From an uncultured Methanomicrobiales archaeon (lineage in GTDB: Archaea > Halobacteriota > Methanomicrobia > Methanomicrobiales > Methanospirillaceae), in NCBI GenBank assembly GCA_903832665.1, contig CAILCG010000012.1:1-58724 (forward strand): a stretch of DNA of 58,724 nt, given 5' to 3'. The notes beneath the pieces are model-generated. The model made no database searches. It was not told the DNA's origin and was given only the letters and a program-made list of their open reading frames with translations. Numbering within the stretch: position 1 is the first letter of the stretch; each line of letters begins with the position of its first letter. Below, piece after piece: positions 23,095 to 57,468 of the stretch. A program made the position numbers and the translations under genes.

Positions 23095-23400
23095 GGGGTC
23101 TGGCGGTGTACAAATAGATCCCCGTACTGGAGGGTGAGACCAGAAATCTACATCATAGAAATAGTATTTTTCAGTCTCGCTCATGGTCCTTGTTTTACCA
23201 AGTACACCGCCAGACCCCCCAGCACCCCTTAATTTTCTGGTCCGTTTTTTTGTACGTTTTTGATCCATTATCAGAAGTGAATTTGGTAAGGTGGTGGGGC
23301 CAAAAGCAGGTCGAACGTAAATGGGGGGTCAGGCAGTGTACTATGCAGGGCCGGCCTGGCCGCGACCTGTTGTTGGCGAGCCCGGGACTTCCCGGCGTGA
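23095..23400 (+). repeat. Composite hairpin repeat B, copy 1
   Basis: GGGGTCTGGCGGTGTAC (23095-23111) is perfectly inverted at 23202-23218. Right beside it, CCCCAGCACCCCTT (23217) and AAGGTGGTGGGG (23288) form a second, imperfect arm pair around an AT-rich core of about 55 bp. A third related motif, GGGGGGTCAGGCAGTGTACT, lies near 23325. The 562-bp gap between genes (22967-23528) holds no other feature except the promoter before 23529. ORFs through it are repeat translations. Confidence 0.65.
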
Positions 23401-26206: not shown

Positions 26207-26286
26207 GCCGGGAGCGGGAACTCCCGGACAAACGGAACGAGCCATGCGGATTGTTACCGTGGGGAGTCGCTCTTACTTCTGCAGGT

Positions 26287-26515
26287 GGGGGTCTGGCGGT
26301 TGCCCGGGAAGTTCACGTCAGAAAAATCTTGGTTTTCCGGATCGTTCATGACCCCGGTTTTATTAAGTACACCGCCAGACCCCCCAGCACCCCCGGATTT
26401 TTGGGCTGATTTTTTGTATATTTCTGATACATTTTACGAAGTGAATTTTGTTGATGTGCGGGTTTAATTCCGGTTGAATGCAAGTATGGTGGTCGGGCAG
26501 TGTACTTTGCAGGGC
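26287..26515 (+). repeat. Composite hairpin repeat B, copy 2
   Basis: GGGGGTCTGGCGGT (26287-26300) pairs perfectly with ACCGCCAGACCCCC (26371-26384). An AT-rich core similar to copy 1 follows (TTTTTTGTATATTTCTGATAC, then GAAGTGAATTT), and GGTCGGGCAGTGTACTTTGC ends it at 26491-26510. The copies at 23.1 and 26.3 kb flank the secreted protein gene in direct orientation. The 448-bp gap 26207-26654 holds no other feature. Confidence 0.65.
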
Positions 26516-35104: not shown

Positions 35105-36367
35105 ATGAAACCCGGCATCGTTTTCCTGGCAACCGGCGCTGTTCTGGTGTTTTGTATTCTCGTAGCCGGATGCACCCAGAATCTGTCCGGTTATATTCCA
35201 TCTCCCGGTACCTCGGGTAATCCGGTTATCGATGCAAATAACCGGTTCTCGTTTGATCTGTACTCCCAGCTTGCAGGCGATGCGGCCAACAAAGACCAGA
35301 ACCTCTTCTTTTCCCCGTGGAGCATATCTTCTGCAATGGCGGTGACGTACGAAGGGGCCCGGAACAAAACCGCTGGTAAAATCAGGAATGTCTTCCATTT
35401 CCCGGAAAACCGCATCGTGCTTCGCGATGGTTACGCGGGTCTGAATTCAGGATTAAACCCGAACAACCCTGCCTATACCCTGCGAACGGCAAATGCGCTA
35501 TGGGCAGAAAAATCCTGGCCCTTCCTGCCGGAATATTCCCGGGTTGCCCTGAAATCCTATGGTGCCCATGCTGAAAACCTGGATTTTGTCCATGATGCTG
35601 AGGGATCGCGCAATGCGATCAACTCCTGGGTTGGGGAAAAAACCGATGAAAAAATTTCCCATCTCGTTTCGCCGGGAGAGATCACTCCCGTTACCAGACT
35701 GATCATCACGAATGGAATTTTTTTCAGGGGAACATGGGCGAAACAGTTTGATCAGAACAAGACTGCGGACCAGGCATTCAGCCTCCCCTCCGGGGGGACG
35801 ATTCCCGTCCGGATGATGGCCCGGAATGACAGAAATGCATTTTTCCGGTACGGAGAGACCGACCGGGTCCAGGTCCTTGAGATGCCGTACGTCAACGGAA
35901 CCGGAACCCCGTTGTCGATGTTCATTCTCCTCCCCCGGGAAAAGAACCTGGACCGGCTCGAACGCTCGCTGGATGCCCGGAAATTTTATGAGCTGAAGAG
36001 ATCCCTCTCAAAACAGCTCGTTATGGTTTATATTCCGAAATTCCGGCTTGAAACCCGATATGATCTGTCACAAAATCTTGCTGAAATGGGTATGCCCGCT
36101 GCGTTCAGTCCATCAGCAGATCTTTCGGGCATGGATGGCACGCAGGACCTGATGATTGACAAGATAATTCATAACGCCTATATCGATATCAACGAGGAGG
36201 GGACCGAAGCTGCCGGTGCCACGTATGTCAAGATTGTCCTGAAGGGCGACAGCCAGCCACCCCAGCCCCCGGAATTCCGTGCGGATCATCCCTTTATTTT
36301 TATTATCCAGGATACGGAAAGCGGAAATATCCTTTTCACGGGACGCGTTGCGAATCCGAATGGATAA
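35105..36367 (+). CDS. Serpin-family protease inhibitor, lipoprotein
   Basis: A 420-aa protein with a lipoprotein signal (VFCILVAGC, lipid on the Cys), then a full serpin. RFSFDLYSQLA opens the fold, NLFFSPWSISSAMAVTYEGA is the shutter, and the C-terminus has FRADHPFIFIIQD. The reactive loop hinge EEGTEAAGAT (P17-P8) has small residues, as in inhibitory serpins. Counting on, P1 is predicted to be Lys (IVLK-GDS), so it may target trypsin- or Lys-specific proteases outside the cell. The Pro-rich stretch QPPQPPEF after P1' is unusual. Serpins are rare in archaea, so ancient transfer is likely. Monocistronic. Confidence 0.92.
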   Translation: MKPGIVFLATGAVLVFCILVAGCTQNLSGYIPSPGTSGNPVIDANNRFSFDLYSQLAGDAANKDQNLFFSPWSISSAMAVTYEGARNKTAGKIRNVFHFPENRIVLRDGYAGLNSGLNPNNPAYTLRTANALWAEKSWPFLPEYSRVALKSYGAHAENLDFVHDAEGSRNAINSWVGEKTDEKISHLVSPGEITPVTRLIITNGIFFRGTWAKQFDQNKTADQAFSLPSGGTIPVRMMARNDRNAFFRYGETDRVQVLEMPYVNGTGTPLSMFILLPREKNLDRLERSLDARKFYELKRSLSKQLVMVYIPKFRLETRYDLSQNLAEMGMPAAFSPSADLSGMDGTQDLMIDKIIHNAYIDINEEGTEAAGATYVKIVLKGDSQPPQPPEFRADHPFIFIIQDTESGNILFTGRVANPNG

Positions 36368-46746: not shown

Positions 46747-48309
46747 CTAACCATTCATAGTGAGTTTGAATTTTTTTGGAAATGTATCATTGAATATTTT
46801 TCTCCAAACGTTCCAATTTTGCGTAAGATCCACTAAAGATTCAGCCTGATCAGCTAAAAACAATCTCCACTGATAACTTGGGATACTAGTCGGGCAATAA
46901 TAATTTCTACCGTTTAATTTTTCTTTTAAAAAAATCAAGTCTGAAAGAAATCGTCCTAAGTAATCCATTGATTCCTTTTTGAATTCAAAATTATTCAATG
47001 ACCATAGGTAGAGTGCAGTTGGCATTTGTTTTGTGTATGTAATTTTTTGATTGGTTCGCCCTACCAAGGAATTTTTATTAAATTTATTTCTGATTAAAAT
47101 TGCTGATTTTTCTGTGTCATGTCCATTCTCTAAAAGAAATTCTGTAAATTTTTTAGGAATTTCATGCATTGCATCTTTTTGGTAGGAAAAAATGAGACAA
47201 TGATTCTTTTCCGGAATATTTTCATATCCTACAATTTTTTCGTTATTCTCAACGAGTTTACTGCACATATTTACGATAGACTGAACACTTCTAAAATTTC
47301 TAGTCAATGATATTTTTGTAAAGTTCCCTTCATTAGAAAATTGAACAATTTTTTCGAAATCTGCATTGTTGTATGAAAAGATCGACTGATGGATGTCCCC
47401 AACTAAATGAAAGATGGAACCTTGTTTTTTTAATAAGTTAAAAATATCAATTTTATGAGAAGATAGATCTTGACATTCGTCAATAATTATGATATTGAAC
47501 CGATTTGAAATCAATTTGCATATTTCAGGATGCTCATGGAGGATTTTATAACAAATAATGTCCACATCTTCATGAGTAAGATAGCCCGCTCTCCAAAATT
47601 CACGTTTAATCCGAAATAATTCTTTTTTCATTTCATTATCTAGAGACTTTACATTTCTTATGGGATCGATGTTAAAATCCCCAGAAGAAAAAATTAATTC
47701 CATGCATTCTATGTTTAGGAAATAAAATTTATTTGCATGCACCCTTCCTGTTTGGGCAAATGAATATTTTGTCGAAAAATTTGGATTTTTTAAAAAATTT
47801 GCATCGCTCGATTTATCTATTATTTGAATACTTCGGTCTTCATCTTTACCGTTGTATCCAGTGACGAGATGAGCAAACGGATTAAGAATAAATTTGTGCA
47901 TCCAACCGTCTATGGTACCAATAAAATGCGGGTGAGTAATTCTTGAGGTACCTGCAAATTGAATAACCCGTTCGGTTATGACATCTGTAGCTTTATTTGT
48001 ATATGTCAGAACAGCGATCCCCGTCGTTTTTTTCTGCCATTTTTTAAATTCATAGGCTGATTTTAAACCAACAACTTCAGTTTTCCCACTTCCTGGACAT
48101 GCCTTCAAAAAACTATCTTTGGTTAAATCACGTTCAACATATTTTAACTGTTCAAGTGTTTTTTCAAAAATTCGGCATTTACCATATTTTTTGCAAAAAG
48201 AGTTTGTTTTACATTGACGGGAATAGCACTCTTCAGCGGAATGCCGATGGATATTGTCACATAAGACTAGGGAGATTTTATAATAGAATTCGTCATGATC
48301 TTCAGGCAT
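46747..48309 (-). CDS. gajB: GajB-like UvrD/REP helicase of a Gabija system (main part)
   Basis: 520 aa with Walker A ACPGSGKTEVV at 70-80, Walker B IIIDECQDLS and motif IV LTRNFRSVQSIV. It ends at TMNG after FPKKFKL. The codons CCA AAA AAA TTC at about 46780-46790 hold the heptamer A AAA AAA. A -1 slip there, or one lost A, continues into motifs V and VI for about 160 more residues. The N-terminus carries a Cys cluster (CYSRQCKTNSFCKKYGKC) that could bind zinc or Fe-S, unusual for GajB. Its start overlaps the gajA stop by 8 nt. Gabija degrades invading DNA when nucleotide pools fall. Confidence 0.8.
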   Translation of the reverse strand: MPEDHDEFYYKISLVLCDNIHRHSAEECYSRQCKTNSFCKKYGKCRIFEKTLEQLKYVERDLTKDSFLKACPGSGKTEVVGLKSAYEFKKWQKKTTGIAVLTYTNKATDVITERVIQFAGTSRITHPHFIGTIDGWMHKFILNPFAHLVTGYNGKDEDRSIQIIDKSSDANFLKNPNFSTKYSFAQTGRVHANKFYFLNIECMELIFSSGDFNIDPIRNVKSLDNEMKKELFRIKREFWRAGYLTHEDVDIICYKILHEHPEICKLISNRFNIIIIDECQDLSSHKIDIFNLLKKQGSIFHLVGDIHQSIFSYNNADFEKIVQFSNEGNFTKISLTRNFRSVQSIVNMCSKLVENNEKIVGYENIPEKNHCLIFSYQKDAMHEIPKKFTEFLLENGHDTEKSAILIRNKFNKNSLVGRTNQKITYTKQMPTALYLWSLNNFEFKKESMDYLGRFLSDLIFLKEKLNGRNYYCPTSIPSYQWRLFLADQAESLVDLTQNWNVWRKIFNDTFPKKFKLTMNG

Positions 48310-50167
48310 GTTTCATCTCGCACACCCAATAAATTGCATCTTCGATATACTTGGGAATCTCAAAATTCACGTTCTCATTCGATAGGGACTCAGCAAGTTT
48401 TTGGGCAAATTCCCCTTTATTATCTTCAATTTTATTGAGTAGATCCAACGCTATTTCCGCTCTTTTTTGCGGATCGGCATTACTCCAATCAGTATTTGCA
48501 TGCAACTCGTACTCTTTTCGGATGCGACCATTGGTCTCTAGAACCTCAAGGAAACAATCGATCATTGGTTTCAAATTTCCTCCTTCGATTGCTAAATCGT
48601 ATTCGAATGTTTTTAAATTTGAAAACAGACGACAATTATCAGATTTCTCTATCGTTTTAATCAAATTTAAAGCAGAATTTTTCCCCTTTCCTGAATTCTC
48701 GATTGTCGGTTTTGCGGTTTTCTCTGGGTCTGCATCGGTGATCCCTACACATTTTAATGGTATAGACAATGCTAAGGGAGTTCCTGAATTAATATTACAG
48801 AATAATTGCATGAAATGATTGAAAAAAATTCCATTGAGATTAATTACCGATATTCCTTGTTCTTCAAGATTTTTTGGAACGGCATTTTGGGATTTTAAGT
48901 TGTAATTCTTGATAACTCTCTTCGCGAGTTCTGGCATTACCATTGCTTCGGCGATACCTTCGACTAATATGACTCCTTTGGAAAATAGCAAGGTTGATTT
49001 TGTCACGTCAAGCCAACGCGTAAGGAATGCTTGGCTTGAAACCGAAAGACCGCAATCTCTTAATGGTGTTGAAATTGTCATTCTATTATTTCCCAAAGCG
49101 AGATGGATCACAGACTCGATCGAAACCGCAGAAGCCAGCACTGCGGAATGTGTTGTGACAATTATTTGAATATTGGAATTCTCTGTTTCACTTTGAAGAT
49201 ATTTTAGAAGTTTAATCTGAAGTTGAGGATGCAGATGAGCTTCGGGTTCTTCAATCAACAATATTTTCAAAAATCCTTGGTCTAGATCAATTTCCTTACT
49301 ATTTTTTAATTCCGCAAGTACGGTTGCAAGATAAATCAGATTATTATAACCTAAACTATTTTCTTCGAGGCTCCTGAATGTGATAACTTGTCCATTCGGA
49401 ACAATTTGTGGGAAGAAAAATAATCTTAAATTCTCAACAATTCTGTTAATGTTAGTCTCTGAAAATTGTATTCGAGTATCTTGACCGAAGACCGATCCAA
49501 TCGCAGCCTCAAGACTATTTTTTATCAATTTATTTGCTCTATGTATTGCCTCTTTTTCATCATTCACAATGGCCTCATTAAACGCGTTCACTTTTTCTAC
49601 CATTGCGAGAGTTTTTCCCTCAACCTTCGCTTTCAAAATTTCTTCTTTGTTAAGGTTTAGAATTAAACGTGCTAACCGTGATCCTCGCCCTTCACGTAAC
49701 TTTGCTTCGGCGTCCCTCAATGGTGGTAGATAAATACAATTTATCAGATCTACAAGCTCTTTCTCATAAGGATTGCTTTGAGATACCCCGCCCCACATTT
49801 TTCTATCGTATCGTCCCCGATTATTTTGAGTATTGTCAACTACCAATGAGAGTCGAGCGGTTCTTTTACCATCTCTCCAAGGTAAAAAAGCGGTCGCTTC
49901 CCGTTCGGATAAATTTTCAAAATTGGCTACAATTTTTATTTTATTCGAATATACAGGATCTTTTACGAATGGTGTATGAAAATCTTTTTGAGAGATCCCC
50001 GACCGTCCATATTCGTCTTCTGAAAGAATTAACCGTATCGCATCGATAATTGAACTTTTTCCAACACCATTCTCTCCAACAAGAACATTCAGACCTTGGG
50101 AAAATCTTATCGTAAAATCTTCATTAAAATTTTTATAGCCCGAGATGGAGATTTTTTTCAAAAACAT
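48302..50167 (-). CDS. gajA: GajA-like OLD-family ATPase/TOPRIM nuclease (Gabija)
   Basis: 621 aa. The N-terminal ABC-type ATPase has P-loop GENGVGKSS at 31-39, Walker B LLIEEPEAHLHP at 303-314 and the switch His-Ser at THS 339-341. The C-terminal TOPRIM has ILVEG (Glu403) and GITDADPEKT (Asp 478/480), the metal-binding acidic residues of the nuclease. Paired with an overlapping UvrD helicase, this is the Gabija arrangement. It could also be a stand-alone OLD/retron-type nuclease, but the neighbour argues for Gabija. All key residues are intact. Confidence 0.87.
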   Translation of the reverse strand: MFLKKISISGYKNFNEDFTIRFSQGLNVLVGENGVGKSSIIDAIRLILSEDEYGRSGISQKDFHTPFVKDPVYSNKIKIVANFENLSEREATAFLPWRDGKRTARLSLVVDNTQNNRGRYDRKMWGGVSQSNPYEKELVDLINCIYLPPLRDAEAKLREGRGSRLARLILNLNKEEILKAKVEGKTLAMVEKVNAFNEAIVNDEKEAIHRANKLIKNSLEAAIGSVFGQDTRIQFSETNINRIVENLRLFFFPQIVPNGQVITFRSLEENSLGYNNLIYLATVLAELKNSKEIDLDQGFLKILLIEEPEAHLHPQLQIKLLKYLQSETENSNIQIIVTTHSAVLASAVSIESVIHLALGNNRMTISTPLRDCGLSVSSQAFLTRWLDVTKSTLLFSKGVILVEGIAEAMVMPELAKRVIKNYNLKSQNAVPKNLEEQGISVINLNGIFFNHFMQLFCNINSGTPLALSIPLKCVGITDADPEKTAKPTIENSGKGKNSALNLIKTIEKSDNCRLFSNLKTFEYDLAIEGGNLKPMIDCFLEVLETNGRIRKEYELHANTDWSNADPQKRAEIALDLLNKIEDNKGEFAQKLAESLSNENVNFEIPKYIEDAIYWVCEMKHA

Positions 50168-50664: not shown

Positions 50665-51457
50665 ATGGTTGGGTCTTATTTTTACCATGAGAGTAACCTT
50701 GATGGAAAATGCCGCGACACTCCTGTAAATTCTTACCGACGGGTATTCCAGGAGTGTATTAATTTTAAGCATAATTTTTATACCCCATATAAAGAAACAC
50801 AACTAGCGATTACAGGGATTACAAGAGCCGATATTGACAAAAAGGCAGATCTTTTAAAAAATTATTACCCTCATATAGATACTCTCGAAAAAACTCATGG
50901 AATAAAATCCCAAGCAAAACTTCGTCCGACTGTGTTAGAGGAATTCTGCGGTTTTCTGTTAAAAGATATTCCCGAAATTCAAAGATTAAATCTTGGTTTT
51001 TTTAATAAGGGAGTGTTTGCTGGAATAGTTTTGGATAGGCATGGAAAGGCCAAAATAAAAACAAAAGATATTGATTTTTGTATTGGCAAGAAATTTGATG
51101 TTAGTATTGGGGATGATCGACACCATATAATTATTCCAGTTATTGCAATAGAATGTAAGACCTACATCGATAAAACGATGTTAAGTGAAGCACAGTTTAC
51201 TGCTCAAAAAATGAAACAAGGCTCTCTCTCCGAATGTCAAGGTCTATTGCATTTCCGAACAGAATCAAATTGATGTTAACGAAATTCCTACGAAAGGAAG
51301 AACACCTTTAGATCAAATTTTTATTATTCGAGGTAAACCGACGAATCCTATTAGCAACGATGCTATTTTTGAGTTTTTCGATGAAGTAAAAATTGCCTTG
51401 GAAAAATTATCTCGTGAATCTATCAGAATAGAGATAGGTGGAATTTTACCCGATTAA
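50665..51457 (+). pseudogene. Type II restriction endonuclease (possibly Bpu10I-like), frameshifted
   Basis: The first frame (50665-51273) gives a PD-(D/E)XK nuclease: DIDFCIGKKFDVSIG supplies the Asp, and PVIAIECKTYIDKTM the Glu-X-Lys. After MKQ near 51218 the frame drifts, and the next frame continues ALSPNVKVYCISEQNQIDVN through to GGILPD and TAA at 51455-51457. The break is in the GGCTCTCTCTCC tract (about 51220-51231), a short CT repeat. Joined length is about 263 aa. The nuclease core is present, but the lost C-terminus probably inactivates it, leaving the methyltransferase alone. The family name is tentative. Confidence 0.65.
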
Positions 51458-52713
51458 TTTGTTCCTGGTAAAATTTCCTTAACCCTCTTTTTTGCTATAT
51501 TACAATATTTTTCAGATACATCAATTCCAATATATTTTCTATTTAATCTCTTTGCTACGGCTGATGTTGTTCCAACACCGTTGAACGGATCTAATATGAC
51601 ATCCCCTTCAAAACTAAAAAGCTTCAAAGCTCTTTCTACGAGATCTTCTGGAAACATCGCTGGGTGATCATACTGGATCATTTTTCTTTCTGGGGCTATC
51701 GACCACTTTGCGACAACCCATTTCTTAAATTCATCATCTTTTATGTCAATTTTGTCCGAAGATCCCTCTTTCTTCAAATCTCCCTTTGCGAATATCTCTA
51801 AAAATTCCCATGTATATTTCAAATATGGACTGCTCGGACTTTTCCAGCTTCCCCATGCACAATATTTGCAATTGTAGTTGTTTTTCTCCCAAAGAATTTC
51901 TCCCTTCCAGATCATCTTCTTCTCCATAAAATGATTTGAGATAATGTGATGGCTTGGGATGTAATCGGAGAATAATGGTTGGATGTTCACGATTATTCTG
52001 CCACCATATTTCAAAACGCGAATACACTCATCGAAAATATCAAACAATTTTTGGAAGTATTTCTCCCAATCAATCTCATCTTTCGATGTGTCATATCCCA
52101 AACCAAAATTGTACGGTGGTGACGTAATAACCAGATCAATGCAATTGTCGGGTAATTCTTTCAGAACCTCTTCGCTATCTCTGCAAATTATATTGTTTTC
52201 AAATTGTTCAGGGAGCATAGTGTTTTTCTTCGAGAAATTATTTCCCTGAGCGTAATAATACAGGCCTCTTTTATTTACTTTGGATTTGCGGTTTTCCACT
52301 TTCCTTTCGTCATTGTATGTTACGTAAAATCTTTTTCCACCTTTAATCCCGTAACTTTTAATCTTCGATATTTTTCCAATAACACTCAAAAAAATCGTAT
52401 TGTCAACTAACTCTGGATTTGTGGTACTCAGAAGACTATTGATATGAATTTTGAAGGCTTCAAAATCTATCGAATGAAGATACAAAATTATTTTGAATTC
52501 TTCGATAATCATTTGAAAGCCATTTTTTGAAAATTTCTTTTGGATTTTATTTAATAATGCAATTTCTGCCCGATTTAATGGAGTGTCAATTTTCACGATC
52601 AATTTTTTGTATTCAGATTGTGGAAATTTTTCAATATCTTCTGGGTTTTCTGTAGTTGGTACTTCCGATATAGGGATGTATTGGTTATGGGGGATTATCA
52701 CTTCTGACATCAT
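51454..52713 (-). CDS. DNA methyltransferase, beta class (N4-C or N6-A)
   Basis: 419 aa. Motif IV is DLVITSPPYNFGLGYD near residue 190, which favours N4-cytosine or N6-adenine methylation. The SAM-binding motif I comes later (ILDPFNGVGTTSAVAKRL), so the order is IV then I, the beta class. An N-terminal region of about 150 aa without motifs may recognise DNA or dimerise. It is convergent with the endonuclease, overlapping by 4 nt, and preceded by the AbrB gene 3 nt upstream. All motifs look intact. Confidence 0.88.
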   Translation of the reverse strand: MMSEVIIPHNQYIPISEVPTTENPEDIEKFPQSEYKKLIVKIDTPLNRAEIALLNKIQKKFSKNGFQMIIEEFKIILYLHSIDFEAFKIHINSLLSTTNPELVDNTIFLSVIGKISKIKSYGIKGGKRFYVTYNDERKVENRKSKVNKRGLYYYAQGNNFSKKNTMLPEQFENNIICRDSEEVLKELPDNCIDLVITSPPYNFGLGYDTSKDEIDWEKYFQKLFDIFDECIRVLKYGGRIIVNIQPLFSDYIPSHHIISNHFMEKKMIWKGEILWEKNNYNCKYCAWGSWKSPSSPYLKYTWEFLEIFAKGDLKKEGSSDKIDIKDDEFKKWVVAKWSIAPERKMIQYDHPAMFPEDLVERALKLFSFEGDVILDPFNGVGTTSAVAKRLNRKYIGIDVSEKYCNIAKKRVKEILPGTN

Positions 52714-53025: not shown

Positions 53026-53098
53026 CCGTGAATCTTACGAGAAATTTGTACAGAAAAAAGATCCCGGAAATATCCTCAATGTGCCATACACTCATCCG
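53026..53098 (+). repeat. Hairpin element R1 (left arm missing)
   Basis: The core is present (CTTACGAGAAATTTGTACAG, then AAAAAAGATCCCGGAAAT). A right-arm-like AATGTGCCATACACTCAT follows at 53079. No complementary left arm precedes it: the upstream sequence is the AT-rich edge of the defence island, which seems to have replaced it. The gap between genes here (52915-54117) holds only repeats. Confidence 0.7.
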
Positions 53099-53156
53099 GT
53101 ATTGTCTGGTTCCTGAGTTGCCCAGTCCTTTCGTACCTAATATTTTGCCCAAAATC

Positions 53157-53290
53157 TCCGATACCTGCCCGGTCCGGTGCCCGTTCCTGTTCCGGCCAAT
53201 TGTCAAACGGCCTGCGATGACCGGCTCAAGGCTGGGCCGGTTACGCGAGACCGGCCAGCCCCCGGGTTTCGGAGGAGTGGGGCCCGGGCC
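53157..53290 (+). repeat. GC-rich repeat C, copy 1
   Basis: About 135 bp beginning TACCTGCCCGGTCCGGTGCC, with AATTGTCAAACGG, GATGACCGGCTCAAGGCTGG and GGCCAGCCCC. Strongly similar stretches are at 53911, 55562 and, in part, 57384. Confidence 0.8.
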
Positions 53291-53299
53291 GGGAAATTT

Positions 53300-53403
53300 C
53301 CGGGCAACTCGGGCAGATGTACCCTTATTTCTGGAAAGTCTTACGAGAAAATTGTACAAGAAAAAGATCCCGGAAATGACCCCAAGTTGCCCGGGCTGCC
53401 CGG
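53300..53403 (+). repeat. Hairpin element R2
   Basis: Left arm CCGGGCAACTCGGGCAGATG, right arm AAGTTGCCCGGGCTGCCCGG. They pair at about 15 of 18 positions. Between them is the conserved core with TTACGAGAAAATTGTACAAG. Total 104 bp. Confidence 0.8.
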
Positions 53404-53419
53404 TCGGTGAAAGTCCAGG

Positions 53420-53500
53420 CCCGTTCCGGTACCGCTCACTTTCCCAAAAGGTCTATCAAGTGCATTTTTTCGCCCCCAAAAATGCAGGCACTGGTCAGAT
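53420..53500 (+). repeat. Repeat D, copy 1
   Basis: About 80 bp (CCCGTTCCGGTACCGCTCAC, then TTTCCCAAAAGGTCTATCAA) almost identical to 55949-56028. It contains the small hairpin TGCATTTTT...AAAAATGCA. Confidence 0.85.
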
Positions 53501-53507
53501 TTGTTAG

Positions 53508-53612
53508 TGCGTCACTTGCGTCACTATGTTCCCTTTTTCCGGGATCTCTTACGAGGAAATTGTACAGAAAAAAGATCCCGGAAATGGCATGCAATGTGAC
53601 GCAAGTGACGCA
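53508..53612 (+). repeat. Hairpin element R3
   Basis: TGCGTCACTTGCGTCAC at 53508-53524 and GTGACGCAAGTGACGCA at 53596-53612 are a perfect 17-bp inverted repeat. Each arm is itself a 9-bp direct duplication. An inner stem TCCGGGATCT/AGATCCCGGA lies in the core. Total 105 bp. Confidence 0.9.
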
Positions 53613-53657
53613 AAAAATCCATGATGTTGAATGAAAAACTCAATCACTTTTTGACTT

Positions 53658-53760
53658 GTGTCACTTGTGTCACATTAACCCCCTTTTCCGGAAAGTCTTA
53701 CAAGAAAAATATACAGAAAAAAGATCCGGGAAAATGCCCTCAATGTGACACATGTGTCAC
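53658..53760 (+). repeat. Hairpin element R4
   Basis: GTGTCACTTGTGTCACATT (53658) pairs with AATGTGACACATGTGTCAC (53742) at 17 of 19 positions. The core between them reads CTTACAAGAAAAATATACAG. Total 103 bp. Confidence 0.85.
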
Positions 53761-53778
53761 GCTTTTGATAGATGCACC

Positions 53779-53880
53779 TGGACACTATGGACATCATTTC
53801 CGGTTATTCCGGAAAGTCTCACGAGAAAATTGTACAGGAAAAAGATCCCGGAAATCGTGAAAATGGTGTCCATGGTGCCC
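53779..53880 (+). repeat. Hairpin element R5
   Basis: TGGACACTATGGACATCATT (53779) pairs with AAATGGTGTCCATGGTGCCC (ending 53880), with some G-T pairs. The core CTCACGAGAAAATTGTACAG lies between. Total 102 bp. Confidence 0.8.
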
Positions 53881-53885
53881 GGAAC

Positions 53886-54024
53886 GGTACCGCCCCACTC
53901 CCAAAACGCTCCGGTACCTGCCCGGTCCGGTGCCCGTTCCTGTTCCGGACAATTGTCAAACGGCTCACGATGACCGGTTCAGGGCTGGGTTCGTTACGCG
54001 AGAGACCGGCCAGCCCCCGACCCG
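53886..54024 (+). repeat. GC-rich repeat C, copy 2
   Basis: GGTACCGCCCCACTCCCAAA leads into the same TACCTGCCCGGTCCGGTGCC block as copy 1. It ends GACCGGCCAGCCCC, 94 bp before the next gene. Confidence 0.8.
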
Positions 54025-54080
54025 TACACAAACCCTATAATAATTCCCAACAAAGATCCCATAACACGAAAAGAACAACG

Positions 54081-54090
54081 CATTATAAGC
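54081..54090 (+). promoter_or_regulatory. TATA box of the MNT/HEPN genes
   Basis: CATTATAAGC is about 30 nt before ATG 54118, spacing that suits a leaderless mRNA. Confidence 0.45.
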
Positions 54091-54117
54091 AAGGCAACTT
54101 AAAAAACTGGTAACTAT

Positions 54118-54462
54118 ATGAGGAAAATCTCACCCCCCCGACAGACCGAGATTGAGGAGATTGTCAATCGGATCGTTGACGCTGTACATCCTGAACAGAT
54201 CCTCCTCTTCGGTTCCACTGCGAGGGGCACCACCGGGCCGGACAGTGATCTTGACTTCCTCGTAATAAAGGCCGGCAGGTACAATGCACGAAAAGTTGCG
54301 GGCATGATCTACCAGCGGATGCGGGGAATCGCCCGGTCGATGGACTTCGTTATCGTCACTCCGCAGCAGGTGAAGGACAACCGGGACTCACCCTTTAGTG
54401 TTGTGTATCCCGCAATGCGGGAAGGCAGGGTCGTGTATGAGAGGACAAAGACGGTCGCCTGA
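54118..54462 (+). CDS. Nucleotidyltransferase-domain protein (MNT, type 1)
   Basis: 114 aa. The catalytic motif GSTARGTTGPDSDLDFLVI has Gly-Ser and Asp-X-Asp intact, and the third acidic strand is SMDFVIV. It belongs to the nucleotidyltransferase family that pairs with HEPN proteins, here the overlapping next gene. It is different in sequence from mntA at 36.6 kb. A toxin-antitoxin or small-molecule modification role is likely. The overlap is 26 nt. Confidence 0.85.
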   Translation: MRKISPPRQTEIEEIVNRIVDAVHPEQILLFGSTARGTTGPDSDLDFLVIKAGRYNARKVAGMIYQRMRGIARSMDFVIVTPQQVKDNRDSPFSVVYPAMREGRVVYERTKTVA

Positions 54463-54829
54463 CAATCCGGCAGAATGGCTTGGCCGTGCGAGAAGTTCTC
54501 TTAACCTGTCCTCAGCAAAAACTCCGGGCGTCCTCTATGAAGATCTCTGCTTCCAGGCCCAGCAGGCAGCAGAAAAAGCGCTCAAGGCTGTTTTTGTTAA
54601 CCGGAAAATACCTTACCCTTACACTCATGATATCAATGCCCTCCTCTCGGGACTCGAACAGCATGGTATGGTAATTCCCGAACCGTTGTGGCGTGCTGTC
54701 ACTCTCACTTCGTATGCATCCAACACGCGTTACCCGGGAACCATGACGCCGGTAACCAAAGAGGAATATACCGGGGCAGTTCTTCTTGCAAAGGACGTTC
54801 TTTTTTGGGCGGAAGAACAGGTCGGCTGA
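54437..54829 (+). CDS. HEPN-domain protein
   Basis: 130 aa starting ATG 54437 (MRGQRRSPDNPAEWLGRARS), a normal HEPN start. The family core is LCFQAQQAAEKALKAVFVNR, then YPYTHDINALLSGLE and a final EEYTGAVLLAKDVLFWAEEQ. It lacks the R-X4-H motif of HepT RNases, as is usual for this HEPN type. It forms a pair with the MNT gene before it. Confidence 0.85.
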   Translation: MRGQRRSPDNPAEWLGRARSSLNLSSAKTPGVLYEDLCFQAQQAAEKALKAVFVNRKIPYPYTHDINALLSGLEQHGMVIPEPLWRAVTLTSYASNTRYPGTMTPVTKEEYTGAVLLAKDVLFWAEEQVG

Positions 54830-54836
54830 TGAACGG

Positions 54837-55289
54837 ATGCAAAGTGAGAACCGCGATCCGGAAATCTGCATAACCAACCGTCACATCCCTGTACCGGCGG
54901 ATCGTATCCGGGAATTCTGCACGAAATGGAAGGTCCGGCATTTCCGGTTCTATGGTTCCATTATGCGGGACGATTTCCGGCCGGACAGCGGTATCGATGT
55001 GATGGTGGAATTTACTCCCGATGCCCATACCACATTCTTTGACCTGAGCTCCATGCAGGACGAGCTTGAGACACTTCTTGACCGCAAAGTTGACCTCGCG
55101 GATCGCCATTCCGTTGACCAGAGTCAGAACTACATCCGCAGGAAGGGAATGCTCTCCGGTAACCCCCGGTTCTTCGCCAGATGTCGTACCTTCTCGACAT
55201 GCTCATCTGGGCACGGTCGATTGAAAAGATCACGGGCAACCATCCCCTGGAACTTATCGATGAGGATAAGATGGCCTTCCATGCACTGA
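54837..55289 (+). CDS. Degenerate MNT nucleotidyltransferase-like protein
   Basis: The start is ATG 54837 (MQSENRDPEICITNRHIPVP). The domain resembles MntA, but the active site reads GSIMRDDFRPDSGIDVMVEF: the first Asp of the Asp-X-Asp pair is Gly, so catalysis is probably lost. The domain proper ends near DQSQNYIRRKGML. The remaining about 50 residues, rich in Arg, Ser and Cys, overlap the next gene out of frame and are unlikely to be native. A stop lost by frameshift near 55165 is possible. Confidence 0.6.
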   Translation: MQSENRDPEICITNRHIPVPADRIREFCTKWKVRHFRFYGSIMRDDFRPDSGIDVMVEFTPDAHTTFFDLSSMQDELETLLDRKVDLADRHSVDQSQNYIRRKGMLSGNPRFFARCRTFSTCSSGHGRLKRSRATIPWNLSMRIRWPSMH

Positions 55290-55513
55290 GTTTCAATGTC
55301 TTCCAGCTCGCAGTCTCGGCTGGGAGAGTCGATGGTATTACCCGTGAAAAAGTACCGGGTATTCCCTGGGATATTCTGGACGAAACAAACCGGAAATTTG
55401 AAGATGATCCTTTCAGCCGGGACAAACAGGTTATCAAGGATATTGCGTGGGATGTCGTTCCACGAATAATTCCTCTCCTCGCGGTTGTCATCCCTGCAGA
55501 GAATGAAGTATAA
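55181..55513 (+). CDS. Degenerate HepT-like (DUF86) protein
   Basis: 110 aa. MSYLLDMLIWARSIEKITGN and the later IPWDILDETN follow the HepT layout. The RNase motif R-X4-H-X-Y is not visible, replaced by NRKFEDDPF, so toxicity is doubtful. It overlaps the tail of the preceding ORF and keeps the antitoxin-toxin order. Both members of this second pair have lost catalytic residues. Confidence 0.6.
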   Translation: MSYLLDMLIWARSIEKITGNHPLELIDEDKMAFHALSFNVFQLAVSAGRVDGITREKVPGIPWDILDETNRKFEDDPFSRDKQVIKDIAWDVVPRIIPLLAVVIPAENEV

Positions 55514-55535
55514 TCTTTGGTATCCCGGCACATTC

Positions 55536-55690
55536 CGGTACCGCTCGCTCTCCCAACGCTCCGGTACCTGCCCGGTCCGGTGCCCGTCCCTGTCCCGGCC
55601 AATCATCAAACGGCTTGTGATGACCGGCTCAAGGCTGGGCCGTTTACGCGGAGACCCAACCAGTCCCCGGGTTCCAGACGGGTGGGGCCC
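55536..55690 (+). repeat. GC-rich repeat C, copy 3
   Basis: GGTACCGCTCGCTCTCCCAA, then the TACCTGCCCGGTCCGGTGCC block and GGCTCAAGGCTGGGCCGTTT. About 90% like copy 1 by eye. Confidence 0.8.
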
Positions 55691-55708
55691 GGGCCTTCGT
55701 TCGATAAA

Positions 55709-55811
55709 TCCGGGCAGTTGGACAGAAAGTACCTGTTTTCCGGAAGGTCTTACGAGAAAATTGTACAGAAAAAAGATCCCCAAAACAGCGATAGATCTGT
55801 CCAACAGCCCG
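55709..55811 (+). repeat. Hairpin element R6
   Basis: CCGGGCAGTTGGACAGA (55709) pairs with TCTGTCCAACAGCCCGG (55795) at 16 of 17 positions, and an inner CTGTTTT/AAAACAG adds seven more pairs. The core between them has CTTACGAGAAAATTGTACAG. Total 103 bp. Confidence 0.88.
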
Positions 55812-55823
55812 GAAGAGAAATCG

Positions 55824-55930
55824 GTTTGGACAAAGTGGACAAAAGGTGCGGTATTTCCCGCATCTCTTACGAGAAAAGTGTACAGAAAAAAGATCCCGGA
55901 AATCATGTAAGTTTTGTCCAACTTGTCCAA
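55824..55930 (+). repeat. Hairpin element R7
   Basis: TTTGGACAAAGTGGACAAAA (55824) pairs with TTTTGTCCAACTTGTCCAAA (55911) at 18 of 20 positions. The core reads CTTACGAGAAAAGTGTACAG. Total 107 bp, only 12 bp after R6. Confidence 0.88.
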
Positions 55931-55948
55931 ATTACAAGAATGAACTGA

Positions 55949-56028
55949 ACCCGTTCCGGTACCGCTCACTTTCCCAAAAGGTCTGTCAAGTGCATTTCTC
56001 CGCCCCCAAAAACGCAGGTACTAGTCAG
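55949..56028 (+). repeat. Repeat D, copy 2
   Basis: About 80 bp, nearly identical to 53420-53500, differing at a handful of bases. Confidence 0.85.
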
Positions 56029-56070
56029 ACCCGGTGCAGCAATCTCTTGTGTGCTGTTGTGCCGGAAGTG

Positions 56071-56173
56071 CCGGGCAAAAAGGCAAAAAATACCTGATTT
56101 ACGGAAACTTTTACGAGAAAATTGTACAGAAAAAAGATCCCGGAAATCGTGAAAATTTTGTCCTTTTGCCCGG
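56071..56173 (+). repeat. Hairpin element R8
   Basis: CCGGGCAAAAAGGCAAAAAA (56071) pairs with TTTTGTCCTTTTGCCCGG (ending 56173), with a small bulge. The core reads TTTTACGAGAAAATTGTACA. Total 103 bp. Confidence 0.82.
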
Positions 56174-56216
56174 ATCGGAATTGCCTGTTATTTCTGATCC
56201 CCTCGCTTCTCTCCAA

Positions 56217-56317
56217 GGGGCACATGGGGCACTTAGACCCCCTTTTCCGGAAAGTCTTACGAGAAAAAAGTACAGAAAAAAGATCCCGGAAAATATCCTC
56301 AATATCACCACGGGTCT
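56217..56317 (+). repeat. Hairpin element R9 (right arm diverged)
   Basis: The left arm GGGGCACATGGGGCACTT has the usual 9-bp duplication. The core reads CTTACGAGAAAAAAGTACAG. The expected right arm is absent apart from AGACCC/GGGTCT near the end, so the copy seems truncated or recombined. Confidence 0.65.
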
Positions 56318-57185: not shown

Positions 57186-57383
57186 TATATCCCCCGGAAC
57201 GATTATAGGATGTTCAATGAAAAAGCATTTCTCGCACAATTCTTAACCGGTTCTGATATTCCGGCAATTGCCAGGGGGGGTTCATTCGGGCTGCGTTTTT
57301 TTAAACAAATCATAATACCCGGTTCTGAAATGGCAGTATGTTGTACAATCATATCGAAAGATAATCATTCAGGCAGCAGTGAT

Positions 57384-57468
57384 GTACCGCTCAATTGCCA
57401 AACGGCCTGCAATCCTCATCTCAAGGCCGAGCCGTTACCCGGAGACCGGGCTCCGGCCAGCCACCGGT
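57384..57468 (+). repeat. GC-rich repeat C, copy 4 (partial)
   Basis: GTACCGCTCAATTGCCAAAC and CTCAAGGCCGAGCCGTTACC match the middle of repeat C, with more differences than copies 1-3. It lies between the lipoprotein and the PAP2 gene. Confidence 0.65.

Follow-up and report, generated by a model that had tools for sequence, protein, structure and literature searches.

What kind of element leaves nine copies of one short sequence core, most of them inside a hairpin, near the end of a 58,724-nucleotide stretch of an uncultured Methanomicrobiales archaeon (contig CAILCG010000012.1; the whole stretch is referred to as the window)? A preliminary description, made from the letters alone, placed the nine cores between positions 53026 and 56317, saw that in seven copies they are flanked by arms that are complementary within a copy and appeared specific to each copy, and named no described family to which they could belong. 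The answer proposed here is that these hairpins are very probably stem-loop replication origins of virus- or plasmid-like elements, of the kind found in the plasmid pRN1, and that their arms are inverted iterons read by a replication protein (Rep) of the primase-helicase type.

All nine cores were recovered on the forward strand, within 53035 to 56292, with starts at 53035, 53341, 53549, 53698, 53819, 55750, 55867, 56111, and 56257, and differ from TTACGAGAAAATTGTACAGAAAAAAGATCCCGGAAA by 0 to 4 mismatches; shuffled window sequence contained zero comparable matches. Seven copies (R2 to R8) fold as hairpins of about 105 nt, with z-scores from -4.5 to -9.8, and folding of R9 gave no hairpin (z-score of -0.4). 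Their self-complementarity exceeds chance: among all 5040 permutations of left and right arms of R2 to R8, the true assignment ranks best, and across 64 copies from Methanoregula and related genera or species the summed pairing score was 990, as compared to 511 ± 27 (standard deviation) for shuffled assignments, none of 2000 shuffles equalling the true value. In 48 aligned copies, 11 of the 14 stem pairs show compensatory changes, which bears out the earlier suggestion that paired changes in the arms reflect a constraint to remain complementary, and the near-invariant part of the stem corresponds to a G.CA anchor. This anchor belongs to a word grammar. Each arm consists of two 7-nt NNGNCAN words phased by about 9 nt (8 in some copies) that are inverted on the opposite side; GCGTCAC, GGGGCAC, GTGTCAC, CCGGCAC, TGGACAC, TGGACAA, and CGGGCAA are among the words found, and the inner word usually equals the outer word, with exceptions. 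The looser pattern GTGNCNCNWGTGNCNC is confined to these hairpins in the genome that contains the window.

The arms do differ between the window copies, as had been described, but the same arm classes reappear in other Methanoregula species, so that the arms mark a class and not a single copy; sharing of arms across genomes is the outcome that the preliminary description had itself named as refuting its view. Detection of the core was restricted to Methanoregula and one related genus of the same family. A scan of GTDB genomes returned real matches in Methanoregula and Methanomicrobiales bins and apparent chance matches in unrelated AT-rich genomes, and a scan of IMG/VR returned no match.

The partner of the hairpin is the Rep gene. 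At 15 loci, located on contig C7 of the same genome and in other species, a hairpin begins 16 to 28 nt past the Rep stop codon on the same strand, some of these Reps being truncated or remnants. The Rep-linked hairpins have arms of 12 to 23 nt and loops of about 60 to 70 nt. Rep has a length of about 850 to 900 amino acids and matches the Pfam families D5_N and DUF5906 as well as TIGR01613, the latter above its cut-off with an E-value of 7e-70, which identifies it as a superfamily 3 (SF3) helicase of the P4 family; the nearest sequence in the PDB is the primase C962R of African swine fever virus. An AlphaFold2 model of the C-terminal 130 residues has winged-helix topology, with predicted local distance difference test values of 72 to 90 across the domain. 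Its top fold matches are eukaryotic RFX DNA-binding domains, and the origin-binding domain of P4 (1ka8) occurs further down the list. The G-N-C-A-C/A words presumably resemble an RFX half-site. Pfam Pox_D5 is below threshold for the Methanoregula Rep and above threshold for the Rep of the isolated virus Blf4, to which RFX_DNA_binding also shows a weak match. Phage_integrase matches exist in these genomes, none of them adjoining Rep and the sole one on a Rep contig lying about 80 kb away, and a PHROGs search for viral hallmark genes among the scanned neighbors of Rep gave only primase and unknown or uninformative families.

The arm words vary together with one particular part of Rep. For 16 Rep-hairpin pairs, a small and related set in which the words were assigned by hand, arm distance correlated with the distance between winged helices (Mantel r of 0.51, 0 of 5000 permutations; 0.55 as partial correlation given the helicase), whereas it did not track helicase distance (r of -0.12). 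Reducing the set to a single pair for each class left a partial correlation of 0.35 to 0.42 (41 and 13 of 5000 permutations; p of 0.003 to 0.008), and a sliding window of 40 residues gave r values of -0.23 to 0.03 over the helicase, as compared to 0.35 to 0.45 in the winged helix. At the residue level, intact Reps of Methanoregula and of the genus g17 that are paired with an inner word with A at position 4 have the residues IS at the opening of the recognition helix, and those paired with G or T at this position lack them; the Blf4 Rep combines VS with GGCA words, so that this correspondence is not a complete rule.

Relatives outside Methanoregula retain the layout. In g17, whose Reps are 61 to 65% identical, a hairpin with similar words and a different core begins 3 to 12 nt past the stop codon. 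Because the same kind of words is thus combined with a different core, arms and core are separable, and as judged from these sequences the arms go with Rep specificity and the core with lineage. The Rep of Blf4 is 57% identical over residues 431 to 876, corresponding to the helicase/C-terminal half, and directly 3' of its primase-helicase gene come three hairpins in tandem that follow the same 9-nt grammar; these hairpins are likely to be the replication origin of this virus. They were found at L170 5375-5650 (about 35817-36090 of MZ171369.1), where they overlap an annotated small open reading frame, and a term search of the paper on this virus (PMC8540584) turned up neither hairpins nor stems nor a primase. 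Further afield within the order, stem-loops that start at most about 17 nt from the stop codon and outscore their shuffled versions accompany about nine Reps, and these stem-loops bear quite different words, such as GTGACAGGTGACAGG and GTGTATGGTTGTGTATGGTT. As a separate observation, an inverted (GTGAACGAT)x3 hairpin lies upstream of the helix-turn-helix and primase genes of a small Thermaerobacter plasmid whose primase is of the P4 family (NZ_CP037897.1, L171 287-392).

From the placement of the hairpins beside Rep, the grammar of their words, the covariation of the arms with the winged helix only, and the layout in relatives, we infer that Rep binds and melts these hairpins and that they act as origins. 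The Rep of the element, combining D5_N with the P4-family SF3 helicase, would bind both 9-nt-phased words of each arm via its C-terminal winged helix, and the inverted iterons would seat Rep symmetrically on either side of the AT-rich core; the helicase would then open this core, followed by priming. Each element lineage may have its own winged-helix specificity, which would prevent cross-firing among co-resident elements in the manner of incompatibility groups. The three features of the hairpin would follow: arms differ between copies because winged-helix specificity differs between element lineages, they remain complementary because a single Rep has to recognize the left and the right side, and the core does not vary because it is a property of this one Rep lineage. 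Recognition of DNA words by the winged helix of Rep would also account better for the constraint on the arms than the insertion process that makes or targets palindromes, or the small RNA, that had been envisaged initially.

Several observations weigh against this interpretation. The N-terminal 462 amino acids of Rep match no Pfam family even at an E-value of 10, and an archaeo-eukaryotic primase (AEP) domain was not detected; the Foldseek matches of the C-terminus are above an E-value of 0.001; the correlation between arms and winged helix comes from the limited set specified above; and several other distant Reps of the order have no clear hairpin. The authors of the pRN1 studies describe its origin as being without iterons and did not identify a Rep-binding motif (PMC4234260, PMC3869888). 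Finally, about 49 of the 64 copies, including all those of the window, are solo hairpins with no adjacent Rep, and an origin function alone does not explain them. The window copies would be Rep-less solo origins that have gathered, together with other repeats, in a defense island (Table 1).

Table 1. Solo hairpins (probable solo origins), repeats, and neighboring genes in the window
Feature	Position	Strand	Arm words	z-score	Remarks
R1	53035..53095	+			Core and right arm (CAATGTGCCAT..) only; left arm absent
R2, solo origin hairpin	53299..53404	+	CGGGCAA/CGGGCAG	-5.3	
R3, solo origin hairpin	53508..53612	+	GCGTCAC x2	-9.8	
R4, solo origin hairpin	53657..53761	+	GTGTCAC x2	-4.8	Core with 4 mismatches
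R5, solo origin hairpin	53778..53882	+	TGGACAC/TGGACAT	-5.1	Right outer word GTGCCCGG
R6, solo origin hairpin	55709..55813	+	CGGGCAG/TGGACAG	-5.9	
R7, solo origin hairpin	55825..55931	+	TGGACAA x2	-4.9	
R8, solo origin hairpin	56071..56173	+	CGGGCAA/AAGGCAA	-4.5	
R9	56216..56300	+	GGGGCAC x2 (left arm)	-0.4	Left arm and core; right arm destroyed
GC-rich repeat of about 120 bp (CCGGTACCTGCCCGGTCCGG...TCAAGGCTGGGCCGG)	53145-53266	+			Three window copies interspersed with hairpins
GC-rich repeat, second copy	53898-54019				
GC-rich repeat, third copy	55548-55669				
Two nucleotidyltransferase + partner gene pairs	54118..55513	+			Inside hairpin cluster; MNT/HEPN type by inspection; nucleotidyltransferases match PADLOC PDC-S09
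GajB + GajA (Gabija)	46747..50167	-			Adjoins cluster; PADLOC matches strong and covering most of each protein
DNA methyltransferase (MTase_II)	51454..52713	-			Immediately before R1

The explanation taken as default, to which we attribute a somewhat better than even chance, is that the solos have no function of their own and are passive remains of origins, or copies that arose fortuitously, which decay and recombination via the shared core have spread. This is compatible with the hairpins being origins. Traces of such a history can be seen at several loci. The solo e39 retains the last Rep codons and the stop codon upstream, and e37 and e58 follow truncated Reps. Units e30, e34, and e32 (among them L096 8079; L089) are chimeric, the left arm belonging to one class and the right arm to another, and point to recombination through the shared core. 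In the window, R1, R4, R6, and R9 show decay, R1, R4, and R9 being partly decaying copies; the orthologue of R1 in a related species (L063/L165) likewise has no left arm, a leftover right arm (TGTGCCGGAAGTGCCGG) from a CCGGCAC-class unit lies upstream of R8, and the word class of R9 is that of the Rep-linked copy on contig C7. Same-class solos also tend to accompany resident Reps. Plain decay does not, however, predict the sharp edges of R3-type solos, which match Rep-linked copies over exactly the hairpin and have unlike flanks: R3 and Rep-linked hairpins of other species are 94 to 96% identical over 103 to 109 bp, and beyond the hairpin there is no similarity. At an orthologous locus, G053 is without hairpins and G071 has one, and no clean single-insertion site was resolved.

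Alternatively, the solos may be decoys kept by the host or origins triggered by a virus, the invading Rep being titrated by the copies or firing them, which would block the element or amplify defense genes. This is again compatible with the origin interpretation, and we regard it as an unlikely minority hypothesis. In integrity, solo hairpins come close to Rep-linked ones (median pairing of 16 vs 17, p of 0.07; 2.5 vs 1.9 core mismatches, p of 0.35), and in the genomes G069 and G070 hairpins are present with no match to Rep. Several of the window copies are broken. The pRN1 protein ORF904 appeared to act on an origin in trans (PMC3869888). Many word classes occur in one array beside the Gabija, methyltransferase, and MNT genes, and near other solo clusters lie a methyltransferase, a PDC-S02 nuclease, or a PDC-S22 (KilA-N) gene, a proximity to defense genes that may or may not exceed the background frequency. 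Decoys would be expected to exclude residents of the same class. Such exclusion was tested and not found, the trend being the opposite: a genome with a Rep of a given class holds a same-class solo slightly more often than expected (6 vs 3.3, P(>=) of 0.055), and it is for this reason that passive remnants or copies are taken as default. The idea in its full form, in which Methanoregula keeps arrays of intact origins of many classes in defense islands so that an invader Rep is titrated by them or fires them, resulting in class-coded immunity or defense-gene amplification, is speculative and given little weight here.

The possibility that the hairpin is an RNA element of the Rep transcript, either a terminator or a small RNA, agrees with its stable RNA fold and with its location on the strand of Rep, immediately 3' of the gene. 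We consider it very improbable, since an RNA structure would not be expected to contain words that are phased by 9 nt and covary with a DNA-binding domain; an Rfam search gave nothing above gathering score, only sub-threshold chance matches to microRNAs, and the terminator beside the pRN1 origin can be mutated without loss of replication (PMC4234260). A transposable element with terminal inverted repeats, be it a miniature inverted-repeat transposable element (MITE) or a repetitive extragenic palindrome (REP) moved by a transposase of the REP-associated tyrosine transposase (RAYT) type, would fit interspersed copies with complementary ends and, in some cases, sharp boundaries, but this highly improbable reading was dropped because the partner gene encodes a replication protein, not a transposase, and in addition the ends vary by class and the middle is conserved, the reverse of the MITE layout as already noted in the preliminary description, and no target-site duplication was noticed, none having been checked at an empty site.

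Other repeats accompany the hairpins. The GC-rich repeat of about 120 bp is also listed at 57383-57449 of the window; it has 10 matches in the same genome, which cluster on contigs C12, C19, and C10, and related islands contain many matches. A different repeat with inverted ends GGGGTCTGGCGGTGT...ACACCGCCAGACCCC is present at 23095-23377 and 26286-26505, with further partial copies downstream.

How stem-loop origins are recognized despite their unconserved sequence is an open problem for pRN1-type replicons and for many viral primase-helicases of the D5/P4 type. The present family offers dozens of natural variants in which phased, inverted arm words change together with the Rep winged helix, so that a recognition code becomes directly testable. 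Origins of archaeal viruses and plasmids may be found from sequence only, as was done for the likely origin of Blf4, and the question is raised of why hosts hold arrays of intact origins without the replication protein.

Contrary to the initial impression that no such family had been described, pRN1-type origins are known, and the hairpin family itself is not categorically new; the novelty lies in the grammar of the words, in the specificity code between protein and DNA, and in how abundant intact solo origins are. Replication of pRN1 from Sulfolobus requires a stem-loop of about 100 nt that lies immediately 3' of the replication gene and that is sufficient together with the replication operon (PMC4234260, PMC3869888). 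Among relatives of this plasmid the origin is the least conserved part in sequence and its structure is kept, and similar stem-loops have been noted in phages (PMC4234260; PMC3869888). The Methanoregula hairpins share with pRN1 the size of about 100 nt, the stem of about 20 nt and loop of about 58 nt, the location 3' of a replication gene encoding an SF3 helicase and a C-terminal winged helix (predicted for Rep), the variable sequence with a retained structure, and the presence of compatible relatives in one host. In contrast to pRN1, they have a conserved core and arms made of 9-nt-phased inverted words that track the winged helix, no AEP primase domain was detected in Rep, and most copies reside Rep-less in host genomes. 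The alpha protein of P4 likewise combines a TIGR01613-type helicase with a C-terminal winged helix, which binds origin repeats (PMC4234260), and the modeled C-terminus of Rep has the P4 domain 1ka8 among its fold matches; unlike in P4, the Methanoregula repeats form a single hairpin beside the gene, and the predicted fold is more similar to RFX than to the P4 domain. MITEs and REP-RAYT palindromes are also small, interspersed, and palindromic, whereas here the core is constant, the ends are class-specific, and the partner is a replication initiator. Methanoculleus virus Blf4/L4768 resembles the Methanoregula elements in its primase-helicase, in the word grammar, and in the location of its hairpins directly 3' of the gene, and it differs in having three hairpins in tandem and a core of its own.

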